64,000 bases of DNA from Chrysomallon squamiferum (Eukaryota > Mollusca > Gastropoda > Neomphalida > Peltospiridae), in contig CM022670.1 of the NCBI GenBank assembly GCA_012295275.1, forward strand, positions 32,821,938 to 32,885,937, given 5' to 3'. Below are positions 5,215-62,212 of this stretch, piece by piece (positions within the stretch are counted from its first letter, which is position 1; each line of letters opens with the position of its first letter). A program made the translations under genes and the position numbers. The notes under the pieces were generated by a model that was not told the origin of the DNA, did not search any database, and saw only the letters and a program-made list of their open reading frames with translations.

Positions 5215-28655
<23,441 letters not shown>

Positions 28656-39000: not shown

Positions 39001-39906
39001 AATACATTTCATATGTTGGCCCTCCTTCAAAACCTGCCTAGTTGTCTGGCCCCTTCTCTCCAAAAGTTTGCTGACAACTGGCTTGTCATACAGTGAAAAT
39101 GCATCTTTAACTCAAAGTACAGTTAAATATCAATTTACATGAGTTTAAAACTGAATATTTCTTTAGGTGATAAAATACCTAAACAAAGAACTGTCACCAA
39201 GTTCTGCAGCAGCCTTCACCATGCTGTCCCATGCCTCAAACAGAGTTTCAGGTTTATACCACACCTGCAACGACATTATACTGTAGAGATGATGATGATA
39301 ATAATAATAATAACAATAATAATAAAATTAATGATAACAAGCATGAAAAATAATTCATATAAAAATGTAAACCATAAATTTTAAAGATTAAATTAAACAA
39401 GAAATGCATGTTATATTAATTATAAAATCATTTAATTAAATAAATATATCTTCAGTTAAAAATATCCGAGATAAACTATTAATACACTTTTGCTTTTGAA
39501 ATTTGCTAAACGTTTGAAATGAAATTACTTTATTCTGTTGAACTATATTACCAATAAATGATTTACTACAATAAAACCAATTAATAATTAATAAATAACA
39601 TAACAATAAAACTTTAAAAAAACAAATAGTATTTTTAACAGTAGAAAAATATAAGCAAGTATGAAGCTGGGATTTGCTTATAAACCTCACATACATGTTA
39701 TATTTATCATGCTTAAAAGTACACAGATACTAAAATAACAAAAACTAAGTTTAACAGTTTACATACTTGCACTAGCAGGAAGTTAATATTATCATGCAGT
39801 CTACAATAAATATGCAGTACTTACTTAGATATTAATGGTATATCACATACTTAATGTCTTTACTGTTTAATAATTGTCCACTCATTTTATTTTGTTTATT
39901 ATGGAT

Positions 39907-39942
<36 letters not shown>

Positions 39943-42900
39943 GTTTATTATTATATATTTTTTATATACTTTTTATTCATTTTAATTTCAATATTTTTAA
40001 CATTATTGATGTTATTAAGTTTGAGAAGATACTTACGCTTTCTGCATAAGAAAGACTTGGTAATCTTGTAATAAGAACAGTATTAAAATCTCGATGACCA
40101 GTAGAGCAGTTGTAAACACTACCCTACAACCACAGGTGAAACAAAAACAATATGTAGACTGCTAGACAATGCTAATGTTTAAAGCTATTTGCTCTCAGTC
40201 ACCCCTAAGCATGTTTCCAAGATAATAAAATAATACCCAGACATGTTAGAATTAATCTTAATTTCACTGTGCATGTATTTGATGCAGCTAGTATAAGCTT
40301 CAGGGCATGGTGGGCTGCCTTTATTACTTATAGCCACAAATGTTAAACTTGTCACCAGACCTCAGTGTATGTAAGAGCACCATGTTTGTGCTATTTCACA
40401 AAACTGCCTGAACATATTTATGGACCCAAAGATTATTACTTCAGTGATGCTATAACTCAAGTAACAACAACGTAACAACTTTTCTTTTTTGACCAGTGCT
40501 GACTGCAAGAAAATACCCAAGTGCAGAAATCTATGCTGAAACTTACTGACCACATATTGTAATTCATGTAAAATTAATGTTTCTTGTCATTTATTCAACT
40601 TTGTGGCTACAGTGGAACAAAGACTGACCATAAGTGAGATGAAAAATAATGCATACACACACACAAACCCACAAACTTGAAGCAACAGATAAAGCAGATT
40701 TTATCAACAAATTACATTTAAAAAGATGAAAGCATTTTAAGACTTAGGAGTCAGGGATATTTTGACATTACAAAAGAAAATTTGGAAAAGAATGTTAAAA
40801 AATACACTTTTATATTATTATTTTACTATTTTTAAAGCGATAACTGTATCTTAATTCAAAATGTTTAGAATTCTCCATTATCATTTGCTATTGCAAAAAT
40901 AAAATTATTATTTAAAGAAATCAAAAAGAAAATTAAATAAAAATGTTCTGTTTTAGATATTTCATAATGCAAATATTATTAGAACAAAAGAAAGAGCTGT
41001 GAAACCAAGCTTGGTTCAGATGTATTTAATTAACAAACTGTGTCTCCTGAAGTCTGTGTGTTTGCATTTGCAAGATTTAGCAGGTTTCCAGTAGAAAACA
41101 GCACACAGAAGTCTGCCGGGGACACTGTCTCTGACTCTGCTTGTACCCAGTACTTACATTTGGTCTCAGAGTTAACTTGGGAAGGGAGGTAACTGTAACA
41201 CTGTCACCATGACCTCTGTACCCATCAGTATAGTTGTACACACTTGACTTGTAATAAAAGAAAATATTTTTGTTGAAAAAAATTATATTTTAGTATTTAC
41301 CTTTGTTTTCTTTTTTTTTTTTCTTGTTGTTTTTGTTTTTTTAATTCATCATTAAGTGTAGAAAAAAAGAAAGTTTTTGGCTCCATAATTTGTCAAATAT
41401 GTACAATGCTATTAAAGTATTGTGAATAGCTTTTCCTCAGGATCTAAAGCAGAACAAAGATTTTCAGACAATTTAAATAATAATATTAACTGCAACCATC
41501 CCCTTACCAATCAGTGAAAAAAAAGAAAATGGAGATTTTTGTAATTTTTGTTATTCAGAAAGAGAGAGAGAGGAATAAAACAAAACAAAAAGGAAAGAAA
41601 ACAAAACAAAAAGAAAGAAGCAGAAAATAAACAAATTCTGATCAGGGTGTTACTAAAGAAATTTCCAAACAATACAGCAAACTACCTAACATTCATATTC
41701 CGTGAGACAAACTGAAACAGATAAATCTATGTATCAGTATAAATCATTGAATCAGTATAAATCTTTGATGGAAAACACCTTCTTAATCAGTTTTATAATT
41801 GTCTCACTGAATTGTGTTATATATCCAGAAGTGGTTTTATTCTAAATATGCTTCCTTCTCTTAATAAATTAATTGATATTAGTATAATCATTAAATATAA
41901 TTAAACTGTTGTATTTTTGTTTTTTAAAAATGTTTATATTTTGCAAAACAAATTTAAAACAATTACATTTTGGGGGGTTTGTAGCATATGCAGGAAAGTG
42001 CATAATGTTTTGGTCTACTTTTTGTCTAAAAAAATATGTTTGAAACTCAAACCCATGCTTTAGAGGAAATGTTTCTAAAAATATAAAGGAATTTACAGGA
42101 ACCCATGCACTTATGTTAATGAAAGCCAGAAATAAATATTTATAAGTAAATTAGAAACAATCCAACATGGCTGCAGTTTTGAGAAACAGCTGCATCAAAC
42201 ATGCACGGTGAAACAACCTACTCGCTGGTGAATGTGTAAAGAAGGTCGTTTGACAAAACCACCTTTCCCATGAAATCTAACAGTAGATTTGTAGCCATAG
42301 ACACTTTTCTAAATAAATAAATCAACCAAAAAAATCAGTTAAAATAAAATAACTTGCATTTTTTTATCATATAAAGCTGACATTTTAATCAAATGTCTAA
42401 AAATTGAAGCTATGATAAATGTAATAAGATGCTAAAACCATTAATTTAATTAAAATACATTAAATATAAAACAACAAATATATAGATATAATATATATAT
42501 ATATATTTACAAACATATTCATTATTAACAAAATATTTATTAATTTAAAGAAAATTTTGAAAACTGATTATTTAGTACAACATTCTAGCATGAAATAAAA
42601 AAATAATTAAAATTAAATAAAGATCAAATATTTTTCAGTGAAGGTCTTTGATTATCAATTTAATAGAATAAAAAACAGATACAATTTTTGTTAAATGAAA
42701 GGTTATATAAATCTGAGATAATATTATTAATTACTGAGTTTTTTTTTGTTTTTTTTTAAATATCAATAGTTTCTCTCTCTTTGTAAATAAATAAATAATA
42801 TTCCAATTACAGATTTACGAAAATTAAAAAATAAAATATAATAAACAATAATATTTGATTGTGGTTGTTTCTGTTCTTTTGTTGTTGTTTGTTTTGTTTG

Positions 42901-45458
42901 TTTTTTGTTGTTTTTTGTTGTATTTTTTTTAGTAATTTAAAATAACATTGGACAAATCCGATATCATGATGTATTGAAGTAAACACAAAATGTTTAACAT
43001 TTACCTTCAAAGCCTGCCAGGCAGATTCAGCATTTTCATCAAACATTCCATAACGCTGATGATGAAAAGATGAGATCCTGTTTGGATAAAATGTATGTAT
43101 TAGTTAAAATAAAACATAAGCTGAAACTGTTTTAAACAGGTCAGTTACTGCAGATAACAAAATCTGAGACATGTTTAAATCAATTATAGTGGGTAATTAA
43201 GTAACAACAATGATCTAAAGAAAAAAAAAAAAAAAAAAACATAATAAAGAAGGAACATGTCATATAATGATAGGCATGCATAATATCCATCAAAGTCACA
43301 TTAAGTGGGATTATTATCTATTACAAATAATCTGTATTACATCCATCAAAATCTGAATAGTAAAATTATACAACTCTAACATCTCATTAATATTATGTCC
43401 TGAACATTTCATCATTTCCACATCAGTTACCTAAAAACAACTGGTTATGCTGGAGTTAAAATCATGAAACAAGTCCTCTTCTAACAGCAATTTTTATTAT
43501 GTTTATGACTTTATTATTGAAAACAACTGAATGTAAGTCATAGCAATAGATGTTGGTAAGATCCAGCAGTTTCAGAATAGTCTAATCATACCCTTTAATA
43601 ACTTTATGAATGGTAACTTTAAATTTTATGTATTTAAATTTATAAGTAATAATGCTGAAGTTATTATTTATCTATCTGTCTGTCTATCTATCTATCTATT
43701 CTATCTGTATCTATATCTATATCTATATCTATACATATTCAAAGCTTCTTCATTAATTATCTAAAAACCCAGACAGTGCTGTTTTAAATCTTTCATACAG
43801 TTATCCTCACCAGTCAGAGATATTTCTGGGCTGTTTCCTCCAGGCATTTTCATTCATGAACTCATAAATCACTTCATTCTGGTTAATTCCTTCCGGAGTC
43901 AGTCCTGTTCCTACCATTGTGCTATTTGCAAATTTGCGACCAACAAAAGGACCCTAAAAAGAAAAAACACTATTGTGTTCTTTCTAATATATACATGTAA
44001 ACAATACAGAAATAATAACGAATCAATAATAAACTGACATATGAATTTGTTATTTGGTTTTTAAAGAAACATAAAACAACCATTAAAATATTGTTAATCA
44101 GTAACAGTTTTATTTGGTATTTTGTTTTAGTTTTGAAATTCTTGTTTCAAATTAATATATAATAATTAATATAAAAACCTTTTTTACAGCCAAATTTAAT
44201 AATAATAATAATAATAATAATTATAATTATAAGTCTAAAAATCCATAATAGGATTAATCAGAAATGGATGCTGCTTTTTATTTTTTTTATTTAGACATAA
44301 AGAAGCACAAGGTTATTAAAAAAATAATATTTTCCACTCACTGTATTAATATTATCCAAAGCTCCATACAGCTCCATTGTACCACCAAAGTTATGAAGCA
44401 TGCACCAAATAAATGGCTGTCCATAGAATGATTCTGTTCTTTCATAGACTGGAGCTAACTCAGCCTGCAGATCAAGAATTATCATCTTTCCCTGTAGAAC
44501 AAATCAATGACATAAAATAAGTTTGCATGAAGAATTAAATTTCATACTAGAAAATTAATGAATGAACATTTAACAAAAGTCCAGTGTGTATATATGTAAA
44601 ACAAAATTAATTAATTAAAACAAGCAAGTAAAAATTGTTTTTAGACCCAACCATAGATTTTATCAGTTGTTATAATCAAACAGTAAAACAAATATCCTGT
44701 GATACATCACAGAAATATTAGTCACTGAGGTTTTTCATTGTTTTTTTTCATCTTTCACATACCCGTGGAACTCCTGTTAACAAAGCTTTTATTTGTGGTG
44801 GTTTCCAGAATCCTCTTGCCATGAATAGCCAGCCTTGCATAAGCCTAAAAAACAGAATGAAATTTTTTCTTAGAAACGTAGAGAGAAATTTTTGTGTGAA
44901 TAAAGCAAATGTTTGTACATATAATTGTATTGATATCAGATTTCTATTTCATTTATATGGCATTCTTATAAAAGTTATGTCAATCTATAGCTTCCTGAGC
45001 CATCTAAATAATAATAAAAAAAAAAAAATAAAAATAAAAAAATAACAGTAGCAATGAAAATAATAACAATACTGGCAATAATAAAAAAGAGGAAATCCAA
45101 TATTCAATTTATCAAATTTAAATATTATTAAAAAAAAAAAAAAAAAATCATCACAGTAATTTATAAATAATTTTCTAAATAGTGGCATAAGTAAATTATT
45201 TGTTTTTAGTGCTTTAACTATAAATGTGTTGGTGCATAACTAACCAGATGGCTTTGGGATCACCTGCTACCAGTGCACCATAGACAGCTTTGGATGCAGA
45301 TGCCAAATAGCTTGGCTCACTGCAAAACAATTGAAAACATGAATCATAAATAAATATACAAAACTTTAACTAAAAAAGAGAAACATAATTTTTAAATCTA
45401 GTGTTAATTAGGTTCCTATTTTATATTAATCAGACAGTTACAAAACTCATTATCTCTG

Positions 45459-45523
<65 letters not shown>

Positions 45524-47974
45524 TAAACAACAACAAGAGCAGCAATAATACAAAATACTACTTCTCAACAACTATCTTTTCTTAAATAAGCTAAAAGCCT
45601 GAAATGTTTGTTATGGTCTTTTTCTGAAATATGTTACCTGGATTTTGGTTCCATTTCATTGAATGTGTCTGCATTGTAGATATGATCTATACCAAACTCA
45701 TTCTGCATCTACAGATAATTGAAAATTAAAATCTATTACTTAAGTGTATTCTCATTCTGCCTACATCTCCAATTAACTTTACACATGATCTAGTGTTACA
45801 TTTTTTATACACCATGTACCAAAAATATTAAGATCCATGTTTTCAAAATCATTAGTAAAATATCTCAGTTTCACTTTTAACTTTCATATAATTATTTCTA
45901 TAGAGTCTATTTCAAGAACTACAAATAGTTTTTAAGTGTTACAGATTTCATTAGTAATATTTAAATATGATTATTAAATATAACTGAACTGTATGGTTTT
46001 TACGAAAAATATTTTTATTTACATTTTATAATAAGCTTGATTTTTTTCATTAAAAAAACATTTAACATGTGATACTTACAGCTGTAATAAAACTTCCCCC
46101 AATTTTCTTAAACAGGGGATCACTGAAGTCAAGTAAGTATGTCCTAAAATAAAAAAATCAGTTTGAAAACCAGAACAACCCCAATCATTTAACTGTTTTG
46201 AGATTTGAAATTCTATGCACGTGTTATATGATAGTTGTCAAATTTCTTTACCATATTCTAAAGATAAAGAGATTTTTTCCTAGGATGAAATGAAATAGCA
46301 CTTATAACAAATTTATTATTATTGTTTGACTAATTATCACCTTTGCAAAAAACAAATAAAAACAATAAATAAATAAATAAAATGATGAAAAATAAACAAA
46401 AGACAAATAACACACCAAAAACAAACAATAAAAACAACAACATTACTGTGAATTACTGCAGTATAAAAATACAAGTAGAGGTATCAGTTAACACAATGCA
46501 AAAAAAAAAAAAAAAAAAATTGTTATTTTCTAGTGCCTAAAAGTAAGAGATCAGAAACATTTATTACAATGAAACTAATTTAAAATATTTTTATTTCATT
46601 CTTAGTCTAAATATTTAAAACAACAACAACAAAAACAAAAAACAAAAAATCATTTATATCAGCATCAACTTTTACAATTTTAAAATATAAGAAGAAAAAA
46701 GATTTTTCTTTTATAAACTTACTCTGAATAATTAGCACCAAAGTTTGACCATCTTCTAAGTCGAGTAACATTAGCTTTTGGAAAAACCCTGGAAAAGAAA
46801 GAAAAAAATTAAAAAGCTAAAGGTGAAGAGAAGTAATGTGTTTAATCTGGGATTTTGTTACAACTTTTATAATTTGATTTGTAAAATTAATGTGGCCACT
46901 AAAATGTCTGCTTACCTTGTAATGGCTGCAGGAACATGTCCGGCAAATCCAGGTAGTACAGGTATCATTCCAAGAGATCTCATCCTGTTCAGTATCTTGT
47001 GCTGCAGTATGAGCTGGTTGTTTATCCAGGTGAGGGGCAGAGGACCTCCCCATCCATGAATGTTACCCATTCTTGCCCTTGAAAATCAAACACTTTTAAA
47101 AAGCTATCATTTCTATGAATATGTATTTGCTCTGTTGCAGCATGAATTTTTCATAAATTTAGTTTATGTGTATTGTGAAGAAATTAAGTATAGGTAAATT
47201 ATTTTAAAGTAATTAGATTTAAGAAATGCCTATTTAATACATTAATAAACTTGATACTGGTTTATTTGGTTTGAGTTAGGCCACAGACAATATATGGTAA
47301 AATAAAGTATATATCTTCTTATTAATAATAGTAACATAATAACTATTTTAATGTGTGTCTTGTTAGTCAGTTTTATATTTAATTCCTCACCAAGCTAAAA
47401 ATGCTGGGCCTCCAAAGTGATCTTCCACATCCTTCCAGGTGAAACCCATAGACATGTACACCTACAGTACACAGAAAACATCAGTAGTACCTTCATATCA
47501 GTGTCAAACATAAGTAATATTTTTATTTAGGTATTTAAAATGAAATCGAACATGTTTTTCCAGTCCTAATTTTGTATAATGACATTTTATATATTAAAAT
47601 AAATCACAAAAACGTTAATCATAACATCTCTCTTCATCTCTCTCTGTTTGTCTCATTCTTTCTTTCTTTATGACTTACTCTCTCTCTCTCCTCTCTCTAA
47701 AACATATGTAACATTATAAAATTTTATAAATACACCAACAATGTGCATATGACCAATATTAGTGTGTACCCTTGAGAAAATTGCTTCTTGTCCTGTGAAG
47801 GCAAGTGGAAGATTGATTCCTTGGAGAGCCATCCAGTCAATCTCCCTCTGCCAGCGAGTCCAGTCCCACCACACAAAAGAGTAGCTCACTGTACACACAT
47901 TCTGATAGTAACGGAACCTGAAGATTAAAACTAATTATTTAAAAACTAATTTGTGTGTGTGTGTGTATACACAC

Positions 47975-51413: not shown

Positions 51414-54341
51414 AAGATTCTATATTTGTTAAATGTATGAACATAATTCTGTTTCTATTAAATAACGAGTATGGAACACTGTATTAATGTACACGCGTGT
51501 GTATGAATGTGTAATTATTTTATTTTTTTTTTTGTATTTGTCAAATGTGTTTTGTTTTAAGAAAAATTGTTACCTTTATTTGTGCATTTTAAATGTATGT
51601 ATTTATATGTATAAAGTATTGTTCTGTATATTTTTTTAACTGCGACTGGAGTTCGATTTCATGTTCGTATTTTGTAGGGGCTGTTTGTGTTTTGTAGGGG
51701 CTGTTTGTGATAAATATATTTGGTTTTTAGGTATCTTATTTTTTAATTTTGTAATTCATTATTATTATTATTTTTATTAAATTTATTACTATTGTTGTTT
51801 GGTTTTTTTTTTTTTTTTTTTACAAAGGATCATTGTATAAGTGTATAATTATGTATGTACGAGACTGCCCGACAGCAATTTTTTTTTTTTTAATTTGCTT
51901 TGTCATTTTTTACTTAAAAAAAGCACTTATACATTATTTTATATGTCAGTTCTAACATTCATCAAACACTTAGGTTTTCTTCCCACTCACCAGTACAATA
52001 TCAAATAACGGTGTTTGAAATGTGTCCATGATTAACTGCAGAGGATTACGTTACGAATATAGGTATAATTAATTTTTCCATATTTCCCTAGTTCTGAATA
52101 ATTCATTGCAACGTGATACATAATCGGTTGGTCTGTGAATGCGAAAGTGGATAATAAGGTACTAGGCATACACCAAAGAGTATTCATATCTCCTGACAAA
52201 AGTTCTCAAATGAATTTCATGAAATCAATAGGGCTTTGTTGAGATACGCTTTTAAAGAAATGCATGTTCCTTCATAAAATGTGTATGTCTTAGTAGTGGT
52301 TCACGGACGATTTAGCCTGAACAATAATTTTACAACGTGTTCTATCTGAACTCATAGGCAGTTCAGTCTAATAAAGATGCTCTTATGCTTGTTGGTTTGT
52401 ATGTGTTAGATTCTGTGTGAAGGTGTTTGTTTGTTTGTTTGTTTGTTTTAGTTACGTATACATCCACTCAGTCAACATCACATCCATTCACAAACATCTG
52501 CGCACATGCACGTTCATGTAAACATAGAGAAATAAATATAACGTTTGCAGTTAAGACAAAATTTTATTAGCAAAAATATAAAATATAAAAATAAAAATAA
52601 AAATAAGAAAATAATAAAAACTCACTAACAAACAAATGAATAATTTTTCTGTGATAGTATGATATTTAAAGCTCGTAACAGTAAAAAACCAGACAAAACT
52701 AATCATATAATTATATCTATAGTTTCTAAGATATATACACTAAAATCTATGAACTACAATATATGGCGAAATCAGAGATTTTTCTTTGATTGTTCTCTGA
52801 CGAAAGCATGCCAAACAGTTTCAATCCAACATAAACGAAATCAGTTCAAAATGGAGGTTGACAAGATGAAAACTAAACCGTTTCAGTCAGACATCGTTAA
52901 CATGAGAGGCATGTTTAAACCACTGAACTGATAATTAAACTACATGGAATTTTAACTGCTTTGAAGTCAATGCTAGATATTCAACATATGCTGAAGAAAA
53001 AGTGAATTTACTTTCTGTCTGTTAGAAATTACAAAACAAACACATATTCTATTTCAGACTAACACGATTCAACAATTAGTGGATATAAAGATACGACGTT
53101 ATTATTATGGATTTAAGAAGTACCAGTAGGCTTAGTATATTGATGGATGTTATTTTATTACGCTCAATATATTTCGATATACAAACTTGAAATACAAATA
53201 AATGTGTTTTATGAATTATGTAAACTTTTATCTAAATATTTTAGTTTAAATTAGTTTAAAAGAATCACATTTCGTTTAATCCCAGTGTAACATGAATTTA
53301 GAGTATTTTAAATTAAACGTATTTTATTTTTAAAACAGATAATCATTATAATGATAACTAGCGATCGTATATCTATTAAGAATATGAACTCAAATAAATA
53401 AATTTAAAAACAAAATGTACAAAATTAAAAATAAATAATAAATAACAAAAACAAATATTAAATAATGAAAACAACTATACAAAGTAATAGAAATATTAAT
53501 GTTTGTTATTTGTTTATTTGTTTTTTTGTTTTTTTGCACTATTTATCTACTATGTTTCTAGCAATCATTTATTACAAATTTCACGATGTTACTTTTGTAT
53601 AGAAAAAAAAAAAAAAAAAGACGAAAAATAACGGAATACATTACATTTCAATAACTATCAAAATTCTAAGTTACAGACAAGTATATGTTAAACGTATACT
53701 GGTATTTCTTTCCTGCTGAAATACATAATAATGTATATAAAAAAATGCAACACACTGATAAAGACAGCTGTCAAATTTGAAAACAGGATATATGATTTAA
53801 TAGTTGTTTTCAAAAATATTTTTTATTGCGGTTTTCTTGAAAGAGGTTTCAAAAATACTCTTTATTATTGTTTTCTGAAAGAGGTACCACATATAATTAT
53901 CATAGATTCCATAGAGGATGTTACATATATAGATAGACAAAACTAGGCAAACAATTGCGCATGCCCATACAGATCACCCGCTTTTATAATAACGGTGTCG
54001 GGCGTGCTCTTGAATTTCTTTTTTATAGATACGTCTTTGTGCTGTTATTCAACTATATTGTAAAGACGTATGTAAAAGTCATAAACTCGTCACGTGGTGT
54101 CATTTTCTTTCGGGGTAACGGGACAACGGTGCGAATGTATCGTCAGTTCGACTGACACGTTGTGTAGTTGCATTTCCCTTTAACATCTGGCATGGAAAAG
54201 GTTGTCTTAATACATACATTAATTTAATGAACTACAAGAACGTCGTAAGTGAAACTTGTGTTTATTAAATTCTCGATCAAATTTGAAAACATTATAAGAC
54301 AATTTAGTATTGTTCTCTGGAATACTGAAAACGGATTCAAA
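50313..54341. other. Intergenic region between NAGLU and Tctex1 copy 1
   Basis: No recognised gene. It contains AAT and GT repeats (50419-50448, 50489-50513, 50718-50760, 50855-50884, 51367-51410) and a short tandem repeat of tttgtaggggctgtttgtg at about 51675-51712. A less AT-rich island lies at about 51120-51360; it has overlapping open frames on both strands but no protein family I recognise. The NAGLU promoter must lie at the left end and the Tctex1 copy 1 promoter at the right end. An E-box CACGTG is present at 54091-54096. Confidence 0.6.
51367..51410. repeat. (TG)n microsatellite
   Basis: An uninterrupted run of 22 TG units. Confidence 0.95.
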
Positions 54342-54953
54342 ATGATGAGGAAAGGTTCTAATATTGGATTAATGCCACCAGTTGAAAATAGGAGAATGTC
54401 GGTAGCCAAGGGTCTGCTTTCTCCTGGAGATACTTCCAGAAGGTCCAGCAGTTTTGCCGGATCAGGGCCAGTACGGTCCAGTCTTCCTGGGCCATCCCTT
54501 ATTGGCCTTCTTGCTTCCAAACGTTTGGCAAGACGACTGACCACCAGACTTTTTGGCCGAAAGGGTTCGTCCAGACTTTCCGGTTACTCCATACCCGTGA
54601 AAAAGGAGCCGTCTTATCGCATGGAACCACACCGAAAGTTCCAGCCGGAGAGAGTTAGAAGTGCTATACAAGAGGTTTTAGAAGACAGATTAGAAAAATT
54701 TACCTACAGAGCCAAGCTGTGTGCGAATCTTAGCAAGGTTCTGTGCGATGAGATTAAGGATAAAGTGAAACTGATGAACTTCGACCGCTACAGAATTATT
54801 TGTGAAGTTCACATCGGACAGAAGATGGACCAAGGGATGATGGTTACCAGTCGCTGTGCCTGGGATCCTAAAGTGGACAATTTTGCCACGTACACTTTCC
54901 AAAACAATCACATCTTCTGCACAGCTACGGTTTTTGGAGTGTATCATGAATAA
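54342..54953 (+). CDS. Tctex1-domain protein, copy 1 (intronless)
   Basis: Tctex-type dynein light chain relative, 203 residues. The first in-frame ATG pair is at 54342/54345; the frame upstream is open but has no ATG. The N-terminal 90 residues are basic and Ser-rich (PSLIGLLASKRLARRL, LFGRKGSS). The Tctex1 domain spans about residues 90-203: YRMEPHRKFQPERVRSAIQE, LSKVLCDEIKDKVK, RYRIICEVHIGQ, TSRCAWDPKVDNFATYTF, ending VFGVYHE. The layout (linker, Y-x-hydrophobic-E-P, domain) resembles TCTEX1D1/DYNLT5-type proteins, which associate with dynein and cilia. The domain assignment is firm; the subtype is a guess. No intron is present. Confidence 0.9.
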   Translation: MMRKGSNIGLMPPVENRRMSVAKGLLSPGDTSRRSSSFAGSGPVRSSLPGPSLIGLLASKRLARRLTTRLFGRKGSSRLSGYSIPVKKEPSYRMEPHRKFQPERVRSAIQEVLEDRLEKFTYRAKLCANLSKVLCDEIKDKVKLMNFDRYRIICEVHIGQKMDQGMMVTSRCAWDPKVDNFATYTFQNNHIFCTATVFGVYHE

Positions 54954-55070: not shown

Positions 55071-56320
55071 GAAGAAGAAACAGAAAACTTTACAATGAAA
55101 CAAACGATGTTAAAGTTAATTCAATGCACTGAAAATCTCCAAACTGTTTTTTAACTATGTACGCCTTCAAACGTGGTTGCGTGCCAAACCATGTTTCATT
55201 ATCGTGTGTAATTTTAGTTTTTAGTAGTAAATTATTTATTCACATTCTTATTCTCTTTATTGTTGTATTTATTATTATTGTTATTGTCATCAACTAGAAA
55301 TATTTTTACAGGCCTGCTTTGTAACGCTAGTTACGTATACTTACGTTATTTATAAATAAATGCAGGTTTTTATCAAATGGTAATATAATTATATTATTAC
55401 AGAATCTCTCAAACGGTTTAAAGATAGGAATAACATTAGAATAATAGCATTTCAAATAGAAAATCATAAAATGATCATTGTGATAAATATAAAGTTGTCT
55501 TATAGGAAAAAAGAGATGACGACCGCAACTATGAGTGTCCCTCCTACTTTTAACATTTAAACTTAAACTTAGATATCTGACTATCATCATTATCATCATC
55601 GTCATCATCCTCATCATAACGTTCATCATCATTATCATGATTATTGTTTTTATAATTGTCCTCATTATTATTATTATTATTATTAATTCATATTTTCATT
55701 AAAATTATCACTCACAAAAAAAATAATAACAACAACGAAACAAAACAAAAACAAACAATAACAACAACAACAACGAAAAAACCCAACAAAAAAACAAAAC
55801 AAAACAAAGAAAAACCCAACCTAAACATTCAAACTCTGTAAATACTTTCGATGTTCGAGATTTTCATAAAAACAAAGTGTACGACAAACAAAATGCTATA
55901 AAATTATAGCAGAATGTTTATTGATTGCTTACTCTTTTCTTTTTGCGCACAACAACATATCGCGAAAATATGTGCTGATTTATTGAAAATGGTGGGTGGA
56001 TTAACATTTGACTGTCACCTGAAATAGTTCTCGTAGTGCTAGTAAAAATACCGAAATGGATACGTGCGTGGCAACACGGGTCACCATGCAATAACAAGTG
56101 TTCTTTTACAGCGTGCTCATTATTTTACGTTCCAGTCGCTTTAATGTTTTCATTTTATTTATTTTTTCTTTCAATCTGTTATCAGTAAATAATTATGGAT
56201 ATTTAACTGGCATGCCTTAAAGTGTAGTGTTTCGTTCTGACTAATTTAATAAAATTGACGTTCATTCAGAAATAGATCACTGAAAGGAGTTGTTAAACTA
56301 TTCCCAATTTCTGTGATATG

Positions 56321-56612
<292 letters not shown>

Positions 56613-57284
56613 TTTGGGATTATGCGTTAACTGTACTGGAGAAATGTGTGAGATATATTTCCTATTATAAAGCTGTGACCTATTCTTTCCGCATTTCTTA
56701 TTCCCTATTTCCATAAAAGTTTGTCGAGCCATACATTTTCACAGCAGTAATGTGAGAGATATAATATTCACTGTTACCATAATGTAAGCGAAGTTATCCC
56801 TATTTCTATGAGAAACATTCTGTAAATCACAAAAGTGACATAACCTATATATTCTCTATTTTCACTTAGAAATTCACTATCCATAGATAAAATGACAAAG
56901 TAACAAATGCAACAGCAGTATCATTAAATAATCTAGAACATCAATGATATTAAAAATAATAACGAAGATGACTGATGATGACAATCATAAGGTTAGTTAG
57001 CAACCTCTGTAACAGTCTGATAAAGTAATAAAATAATACTCTAATTAGGACGTTCTTACCACGTGGCATCAGTTTAAGTGTCTGCGCGGAAGGATTCACG
57101 TGTGTTTTTCAAGGACTTTTACAAGTCGCTGGGAATTTCCTTTCAGACAACTATATTATTTAAAATTTTAATACAAGGAAAATATTTTCTTACGTACGGT
57201 GTTTTCTTTGACTTTTTATTTTATAATGTATTTATTTATGTTTTAAATTGTGAAAAGTAAAGATAAAAAAAAATAATAATAATA

Positions 57285-57322
<38 letters not shown>

Positions 57323-57759
57323 GATAAATAAATAAATAATAAAAAAATTATAAAAATTATAAAAATAAAGAGGATTAAAAAAGACTAATAAATTATAATA
57401 GTAAATAGGAAAAAAAAATATTACCTGAAATTCAAAGAAAACAAACAATTACAAAAAATGAAATTATAAAATAATAAAATAAAATGAATTTAAATATGGC
57501 GTAATATATATATATATTTTTTTATCATAAACACAACGTTTTCTTTTGTTTATTTATTTATTTATTTTTTTTCTACTACTACTACAGCTGCTATTACAAC
57601 AATTACTACTCCTACTACTACAACAACAACTACTACTACTATTATTTCAACCCATGATAGGTTAGGATTCTGTTTTAGAAAATATTTTATATATTTTGGT
57701 TTACGCACTTAGAGAAGTCGGAATACAAAACAACATCCCAGACCATACCACCCTCCATC

Positions 57760-57761
<2 letters not shown>

Positions 57762-57844
<83 letters not shown>
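57762..57844. repeat. (CT)n tract
   Basis: An 83-bp pure CT dinucleotide run on the + strand. GT repeats follow at 57901-57942. Confidence 0.95.
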
Positions 57845-60069: not shown

Positions 60070-61349
<1,280 letters not shown>

Positions 61350-61931
61350 ATGACGACTAAAAAAGTGCTTGTAATATCGGGCGATAATTCTCCTATTAAC
61401 CTGAATCCGCTGGCTTTCGCCACAGACGAAAGAAAAAGGAGCCTATTTCCAGTGGTGGATTCCAGAAGAAGTAGCGTTTTCCAGTCACAGATAAGTAGTT
61501 TAATCACGCCGAAAAAACCTGTCAAAAAACTGGTAAAGTTGGATAAAAGAGAAACATCGCCATTCCAGCCTGTCATCAACTACGAACCAACGTATCGCAT
61601 GGAACCGAGCGGTAGATTTCAGACTCACAAGATTCGCAATGTCCTTCAAGAAACAGTCGACTACAGGCTTCAAGAGTTTCAATATAATTCCAAGATGGCG
61701 CCCACGATGAGTCAAGTCCTGACAGATGAAATCAAGGACAGGGTGAAACAGCTTTGTTTCGACAGATATAAGATAATTGTAACTGTGATTCTTGGTGAGA
61801 AGAAAGAACAAGGTATCATGGTAACTAGTCGATGTGCCTGGGATCCCAAGTTCGATGACTATGCAACATACTCGTTTCAGAACAAAACCGTTTTCTGTAC
61901 TGTATCGGTATATGGCATATATATGGAGTAA
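61350..61931 (+). CDS. Tctex1-domain protein, copy 3 (intronless)
   Basis: Tctex-type dynein light chain relative, 193 residues, intact. ATG at 61350 (MTTKKVLVISGDN), stop TAA at 61929-61931. The N-terminal ~80 residues are Lys/Ser-rich (KKPVKKLVKLDKRE). The domain begins at INYEPTYRMEPSGRFQTHKI and continues with LTDEIKDRVKQL, RYKIIVTVILGE, VTSRCAWDPKFDDYATYSF, ending VYGIYME. It is closest to copy 1 in the domain (shared VTSRCAWDPK) and to copy 2 at YEPTYR. No introns. A role in dynein or ciliary complexes is inferred from the family. Confidence 0.9.
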   Translation: MTTKKVLVISGDNSPINLNPLAFATDERKRSLFPVVDSRRSSVFQSQISSLITPKKPVKKLVKLDKRETSPFQPVINYEPTYRMEPSGRFQTHKIRNVLQETVDYRLQEFQYNSKMAPTMSQVLTDEIKDRVKQLCFDRYKIIVTVILGEKKEQGIMVTSRCAWDPKFDDYATYSFQNKTVFCTVSVYGIYME

Positions 61932-62212
61932 TCTAATGCAGACAGTTTTTCATTAGAAGAAGTCAAAAATTCAGTTTCATTCGTGTGTTTTTTTCTTTTT
62001 ACTAATTTACCAGGTGTGCCACACTAACATTAACACTGTTAGGAACTGATCCCATAGTCAAGAATAGTGTGCGATAATGTTGTCAGCATTATGAATACCT
62101 ATTTTGTATTTAGGTAAACCGATTTATTATTTGCTAATTAGAAATTATATTTTTATTTCAAATTTGAACGTGAGCAGATATGGTTGCTTTCCATTTCATG
62201 TTATGAAAGAAA

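Follow-up and report, generated by a model that had tools for sequence, protein, structure and literature searches.

Three tandem, probably mutually exclusive exons in the single NAGLU gene of the snail Chrysomallon squamiferum

NAGLU is lost in Sanfilippo syndrome B and is commonly regarded as a single enzyme with a single task. Human NAGLU and the bacterial GH89 enzymes resemble the snail protein considered here in their domains, in the fold (as modelled for a relative of the snail) and in the catalytic glutamates. In the bacterial enzymes, however, the loop near the segment discussed below differs between genes and not by splicing, according to the account of a Clostridium enzyme (PMC8225759), and human NAGLU possesses the segment once. 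The nearest functional parallel of the snail exon cluster is COQ-2, for which exclusive exons are reported in C. elegans, parasitic helminths, annelids and molluscs (PMC7434440). The shared features are tandem enzyme exons of the same phase, an occurrence across phyla and the swapping of a piece near the substrates. The COQ-2 account describes two versions, the quinone pathway and a product switch that was tested, whereas NAGLU has at least three versions, is a lysosomal glycosidase and has a putative role. Human tandem duplicated exon substitutions (PMC9741552) likewise comprise homologous exons of old origin, used, as is probable for snail NAGLU, one per mRNA; the stress of that work is on ion transporters and channels, and its main text contains neither ‘lysosom’ nor ‘glycosidase’. 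An alternatively spliced duplicate exon is also described for a molluscan enzyme, the oyster alternative oxidase (PMC5589949), which, unlike snail NAGLU, is a mitochondrial oxidase with two forms. Long-range pairing between the introns of a cluster is a feature of the Dscam-type docking-site/selector clusters (PMC6071210, PMC8042237); as described, several selectors compete there for one docking site, whereas snail NAGLU has one strong candidate helix, seen in one species. No published description of such exons in NAGLU was found among open-licence full texts, in line with an earlier note on this DNA, which knew of no exclusive exons described for this enzyme.

The window, a stretch of 64,000 nucleotides of C. 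squamiferum DNA, contains a NAGLU gene that is complete from its start codon to its stop codon (Table 1). When the minus strand is spliced, all 24 introns are of the GT..AG type and the frame is open throughout; exons 1 and 2, which encode the signal peptide, are placed by frame and splice signals only. Three Pfam families, NAGLU_N, NAGLU and NAGLU_C, match the spliced protein far above the cut-off, and residues 38-746 align with human NAGLU (PDB 4xwh). The catalytic glutamates of the human enzyme are E316 and E446 (PMC13207710); both are kept in the snail protein, as the aligned E in FNEM and TPEG (chain numbered from the 4xwh alignment). When the 404.6-Mb genome was searched for members of the family, there were four matches, every one an exon of this locus; gene copies instead of isoforms are ruled out in this snail by the absence of a second NAGLU locus from that search. 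The locus is a single-copy gene for NAGLU, a GH89 lysosomal alpha-N-acetylglucosaminidase, the activity being predicted.

Other parts of the window contain further features. A Tctex-1 (dynein light chain) domain occurs in each of two open frames, at 54249-54953 (+, E = 2.2e-30) and 61350-61931 (+, E = 4.6e-30), which are likely to be a tandem gene pair upstream of NAGLU. A 320-aa open frame lies at 27693-28655 (+), and its residues 10-52 match a PDZ domain. Long GA/CT simple repeats occupy 56300-57800 and 60780-62205, where mutual pairing over more than 1 kb is possible.

Table 1. Coordinates of the NAGLU gene, of the exons discussed and of the arms of the candidate RNA helix, in positions of the window
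Feature	Position	Strand	Characteristics
Complete NAGLU gene	50266-36032	-	start to stop codon; A, B and C in addition to 22 constitutive exons
Exon 8	46723..46788	-	66 nt; single in the window
Constitutive exon 15	43005..43077	-	5′ of the cluster; end phase 0
Alternative exon A	42222..42308	-	87 nt; net charge +7; no N-glycosylation sequon
Helix 5′ arm	42187..42214	-	starts at intron position +8 after the donor of A
Alternative exon B	41158..41247	-	90 nt; net charge +1; sequon NYT
Helix 3′ arm	40261..40290	-	about 140 nt upstream of C
Alternative exon C	40037..40123	-	87 nt; net charge 0; sequon NCS
Constitutive exon 3′ of the cluster	39179..39264	-	start phase 0

The earlier note had proposed three tandem homologous NAGLU exons of 87, 90 and 87 nt, in phase 0 and with splice signals, encoding versions of the same segment (SVYGYK..KRPSL, SVYNYT..SLPKL and SVYNCS..RLPSL). 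GT..AG splicing and the profile matches agree with this arrangement, and a segment HMM finds exactly these three places. This HMM, built from 130 relatives with the window left out, was run against 2,866 stop-to-stop fragments representing the whole window in six frames; it matched C with E = 1.2e-13, B with 8.6e-9 and A with 9.6e-8, and chance homology is ruled out by these three matches, the next best having E = 1.4. No fourth copy of the segment was found by the HMM in the six frames of the whole window. A homology search confined to the region of exon A yielded 22 candidates, none of them at E 0.001. The three exons are adjacent, homologous by profile and similar in length, each running from phase 0 to phase 0, and they encode versions of one segment of 29-30 residues that corresponds to residues ~499-528 of human NAGLU. 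In the 4xwh alignment this segment is present as a single copy in the human enzyme, as had also been claimed. VY and a proline are kept in A, B and C. The proline is invariant in 56 aligned relatives, and the segment, with this one invariant column only, belongs to the less conserved parts of their alignment. The sequon of B and C sits at the place of human N503 (numbering from the 4xwh alignment).

Used singly, A, B and C give full-length NAGLU of 778, 779 and 778 aa, respectively. When all three are joined, the spliced product has 837 aa, confirming the calculation of the earlier note (in frame, about 837 residues), and all eight combinations, including the one with none of the exons, stay open. 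Joint use is not punished by a frameshift, because the lengths are all multiples of 3, and exclusion by frameshift is impossible for the same reason. Exclusion by short introns, that is, by crowding, is an unlikely cause too, since the A-B and B-C introns flanking B measure 974 and 1034 nt; the three longest introns of the gene are of 1034, 974 and 772 nt. The acceptors of the three exons score 3.48, 4.31 and 5.45 against a gene median of 8.58, with 4-5 of the 21 other acceptors lower still. Among the donors, for which the median is 6.83, that of B scores higher (7.25), and those of A (5.50) and C (5.19) score lower. Taken as a whole, the locus is probably a single-copy NAGLU gene with three old tandem mutually exclusive exons that supply one segment of the C-terminal helical domain, and the choice of A, B or C is likely to be exclusive. 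As a rule, one of the three would connect exon 15 with the exon at 39264, so as to give three full-length enzymes with a common catalytic core and a different loop.

Related proteins were taken as the best 120 of 6,029 found with isoform C as a query and the best 120 of 2,222 found with an octopus protein; the isoforms of these relatives are mostly computed gene models. Segment versions differ among octopuses, abalones and whelks, and the models of Octopus sinensis and O. bimaculoides have different versions. In a tree of 92 segments, which uses 32 columns only, has an unsettled bootstrap and contains A-type rows assigned beforehand by the author, the nine A-type rows form one clade (100/92), comprising chiton, limpets, abalone, periwinkle, whelk, one further record and this snail. 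An octopod version joins this clade (99/81), and one mussel, one pearl-oyster and oyster versions cluster (100/89) apart from the other mussel and pearl-oyster versions. Snail A has an alignment score of 87 with the chiton version versus 17 with its own neighbour C. Of the three exons, which the earlier note would look for in relatives, A and C have, at the protein level, close counterparts across gastropods; B belongs to no supported clade and has one of two Ruditapes versions as its best match.

The introns flanking A, B and C show similarity within that of shuffled sequences in six of six comparisons (the observed score being reached by 8 to 94 of 100 shuffles), and the likeness of the exons at the DNA level is small (4, 28 and 9 of 100 shuffles as high); a recent duplication is ruled out by these dissimilar flanks and by the little likeness of the exon DNA. 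Because of the A-type clade, the scores of 87 and 17 and the dissimilar flanks, the versions are considered to be old and to have been kept apart. The exon cluster appears to be ancient and widespread in molluscs and not private to this snail, which is reported here for the first time. One NAGLU gene probably provides several enzyme forms, since three exon versions are present here and matching sets exist in related molluscs.

Exon choice may involve RNA structure. A duplex scan gave a long-range helix with a core of 27 bp (42214-42187 with 40261-40290), containing one mismatch and one 2-nt bulge; one arm has two weaker partner sites in the same intron. The wider duplex has 65 bp and an energy of -65.4 kcal/mol; 500 shuffles of the arm averaged -38.3 (sd 4.6) and went no lower than -55.1. 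The energy of the whole arm is nearly equal at the partner (-61.4) and at 28540 (-61.1). RNA folding of a 2.2-kb piece of the cluster, 42330-40100, assigned probabilities of 0.79-1.00 to five core pairs and near 0 to the outer parts of the 65-bp duplex; the donor of A was paired at 0.83 and the acceptor of C at 1.00. If formed, the pairing of the start of the A-B intron with the intron upstream of C would loop out B and help the choice.

The significance of the helix depends on the scoring. By the first scoring, the helix is reached in 3 of 200 shuffles and also in at least 14 of the 33 control stretches; by another, too lenient one, 285 of 300 shuffles are above it. Under a strict scoring, set after these two, the helix has a score of 37.3, which none of 400 shuffles reach (mean 21.4, highest 32.0), and four of the 33 control stretches are above it. 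The helix is a lead, because only this strict scoring, set after the other two, singles it out. It is rather likely that the helix is a chance inverted repeat and that exon choice is set by proteins alone, as two of the three scorings do not distinguish it and the acceptor of C is paired too; this explanation has to contend with the strict scoring, where the controls above the helix are all simple repeats, and with the place of one arm, 8 nt past the donor of A, in a 76-base stretch that occurs once in the genome. That the pairing helps the choice by looping out B, in favour of either A or C, is a tentative and somewhat doubtful proposal. The A-C helix is presented here, for the first time, as a candidate splicing switch. 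The intron preceding C also contains a hairpin (40634-40590 with 40349-40305, minus strand), with a score reached by 4 of 400 shuffles; it could compete with the long-range helix, because the outer part of the duplex shares bases with the 3′ arm of the hairpin.

The position of the segment was considered in the model of an abalone relative, Haliotis rubra X2 (mean pLDDT 90.4; TM 0.97 of target versus 4xwh). The segment is located between two helices, mostly lacks regular secondary structure and is mostly well ordered, its single copy having pLDDT values of 93, 70, 92 and 88 by block. R514 and N526 of human NAGLU, which a figure legend assigns to the active-site region (PMC13207710), fall inside the segment (numbering from the 4xwh alignment). 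In the GH89 enzyme of Clostridium, a loop by which Trp685 enters the pocket was proposed to play a part in the recognition of GlcNAc-alpha-1,4-Gal, and cutting this loop doubled the activity on a heparosan disaccharide (PMC8225759); by the same alignment numbering, Trp685 falls just after the segment. Substrate tuning is plausible because human active-site residues lie in the segment and because of the effect of the Clostridium loop. The loop could border the substrate cleft, with A favouring polyanionic heparan-type ends and B and C less charged alpha-GlcNAc ends, a possibility rated somewhat below even. A literature search for papers on two MPS IIIB variants of the segment found none.

Charge, calculated as K+R-D-E, separates A from B and C. 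A-type relatives have +5 to +10 (8/8) and the C-type segments of non-heterobranch gastropods have -3 to +1 (10/10 listed), both lists being picked by similarity; the heterobranchs, left out at first and counted afterwards, have -3 to +2 in all 13 named segments. The values are +4, +3, -3 and -3 in mussels, 0, +1 and -3 in Pinctada and +2 and +6 in octopods. The versions of Ruditapes (2 and 1) and of Mercenaria (0 and 0) differ little, and 15 vertebrate segments range from +1 to +5, so charge is not simply mapped on heparan use. The sequon, absent from snail A, is kept in five of the eight A-type relatives. The versions appear to differ in charge by type, with A basic and C near neutral in relatives as well as in the snail, which is new here. 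The choice of exon might be real and the versions functionally equal, with a tolerant loop in which differences drift. The weak conservation of the segment, with its one invariant column, and the widely varying charges of bivalve versions are consistent with this; from chiton to whelk, however, the A-type versions resemble one another and are distinct from C, and the charges of A and C are split without overlap, and equality of the versions is considered unlikely.

The mutually exclusive layout proposed in the earlier note is backed by isoform swaps in mussels and by the presence of one version per short-contig protein, and joined versions predicted in six species speak against it. The mussel evidence consists of Mytilus isoform pairs from one contig, drawn from the predicted isoforms M. 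californianus X1-X5, M. trossulus X1-X4 and M. galloprovincialis X2, X4 and X5, with M. galloprovincialis X7 (without the ~259-278 block), one partial record and one divergent record left out. All 19 pairs differ only at ~259-278 and/or ~500-531. The latter block is the segment of A, B and C, of which the predicted isoforms of M. californianus contain four versions; versions are swapped and never joined in these models. Short-contig, intron-free proteins contain exactly one version in 37 of 37 cases (24 + 13), their contigs being too short for introns (36 below 6 kb, one of 10 kb) and several of the proteins being vertebrate- or arthropod-like, not molluscan.

Among the matches listed, the predicted proteins of six species have joined versions: two in a row in Haliotis asinina X2, Ruditapes X1, Mercenaria X2, Nucella and the annelid Dimorphilus, and three in tandem in Pinctada. 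These proteins, which include the NCBI models of H. asinina, Ruditapes and Mercenaria, would fit cassettes that can be joined, so that mRNAs carry one, two or three versions and longer enzymes have extra loop copies; every combination is in frame in the snail. Joinable cassettes are nevertheless improbable in the face of the mussel swaps and of the single version in every short-contig protein. The added A copy of the joined H. asinina X2 model (residues 507-531) is disordered, with pLDDT <50, perhaps partly as a result of the alignment, where most rows have one copy. Moreover, gene predictors often join such exons.

The other variable block of the mussel proteins, ~259-278, is the counterpart of snail exon 8. 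In Mytilus and Ostrea, this counterpart is a second swapped cassette of 22 aa, located in the TIM barrel (P0036-P0064, P0043, P0046). It has three versions in M. californianus, and the block matching exon 8 is the only difference between Ostrea edulis X1 and X2. A second cassette in bivalves, as predicted by these comparisons, is new here. The window contains no second version of exon 8, the profile of which matches once in six frames.

Same-species pairs of Babylonia, Patella caerulea, Argopecten, Mercenaria, Aplysia, Haliotis rubra, Pomacea and Candidula differ throughout; since the differences span the whole protein, these eight pairs look like separate gene copies and not like isoforms. 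In P. caerulea, P0007 and P0008 have neighbouring locus numbers on one contig, one with an A-type segment and the other with a different one; in limpets, the segment versions may have become divided between two copies of the gene. The short-contig proteins P0144 and P0145 have near-identical flanks and different segment middles, which may mean that exons are swapped in non-molluscs as well, or that the proteins come from two species. A predicted protein of Dimorphilus gyrociliatus (P0096) has a zwilch domain (PF09817) fused with NAGLU and contains two segment copies.

The acceptors below the median, the lack of a clear counterpart clade for B and the absence from snail A of the sequon common in A-type relatives might suggest that C, or one exon, works and that at least one of the others is a relic in decay, rarely spliced in. 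This is highly improbable, since the frames of A, B and C are all open, each exon retains VY, the invariant proline and GT..AG signals, and A and C are closely matched across gastropods.

The exclusive choice of one of three old exons in a single NAGLU gene remains the preferred reading. In its widest form, rated decidedly unlikely as a whole, mollusc NAGLU would have been switchable since the ancestor of chitons, gastropods and cephalopods, with exclusive exons that exchange a basic cleft loop, suited to polyanionic heparan-type ends, for neutral or acidic ones that serve other alpha-GlcNAc chains, with a TIM-barrel cassette added in bivalves to allow combinations and with a choice in the snail that is gated by the helix looping out B. 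The natural loop variants, which differ by as many as seven charges and seem to have been held apart for as long as molluscs have existed, would reveal the cleft residues that set substrate choice and constitute a ready-made test set for NAGLU. If the reading is true, a lysosomal glycosidase would join the few enzymes for which exon choice may determine the range of substrates.
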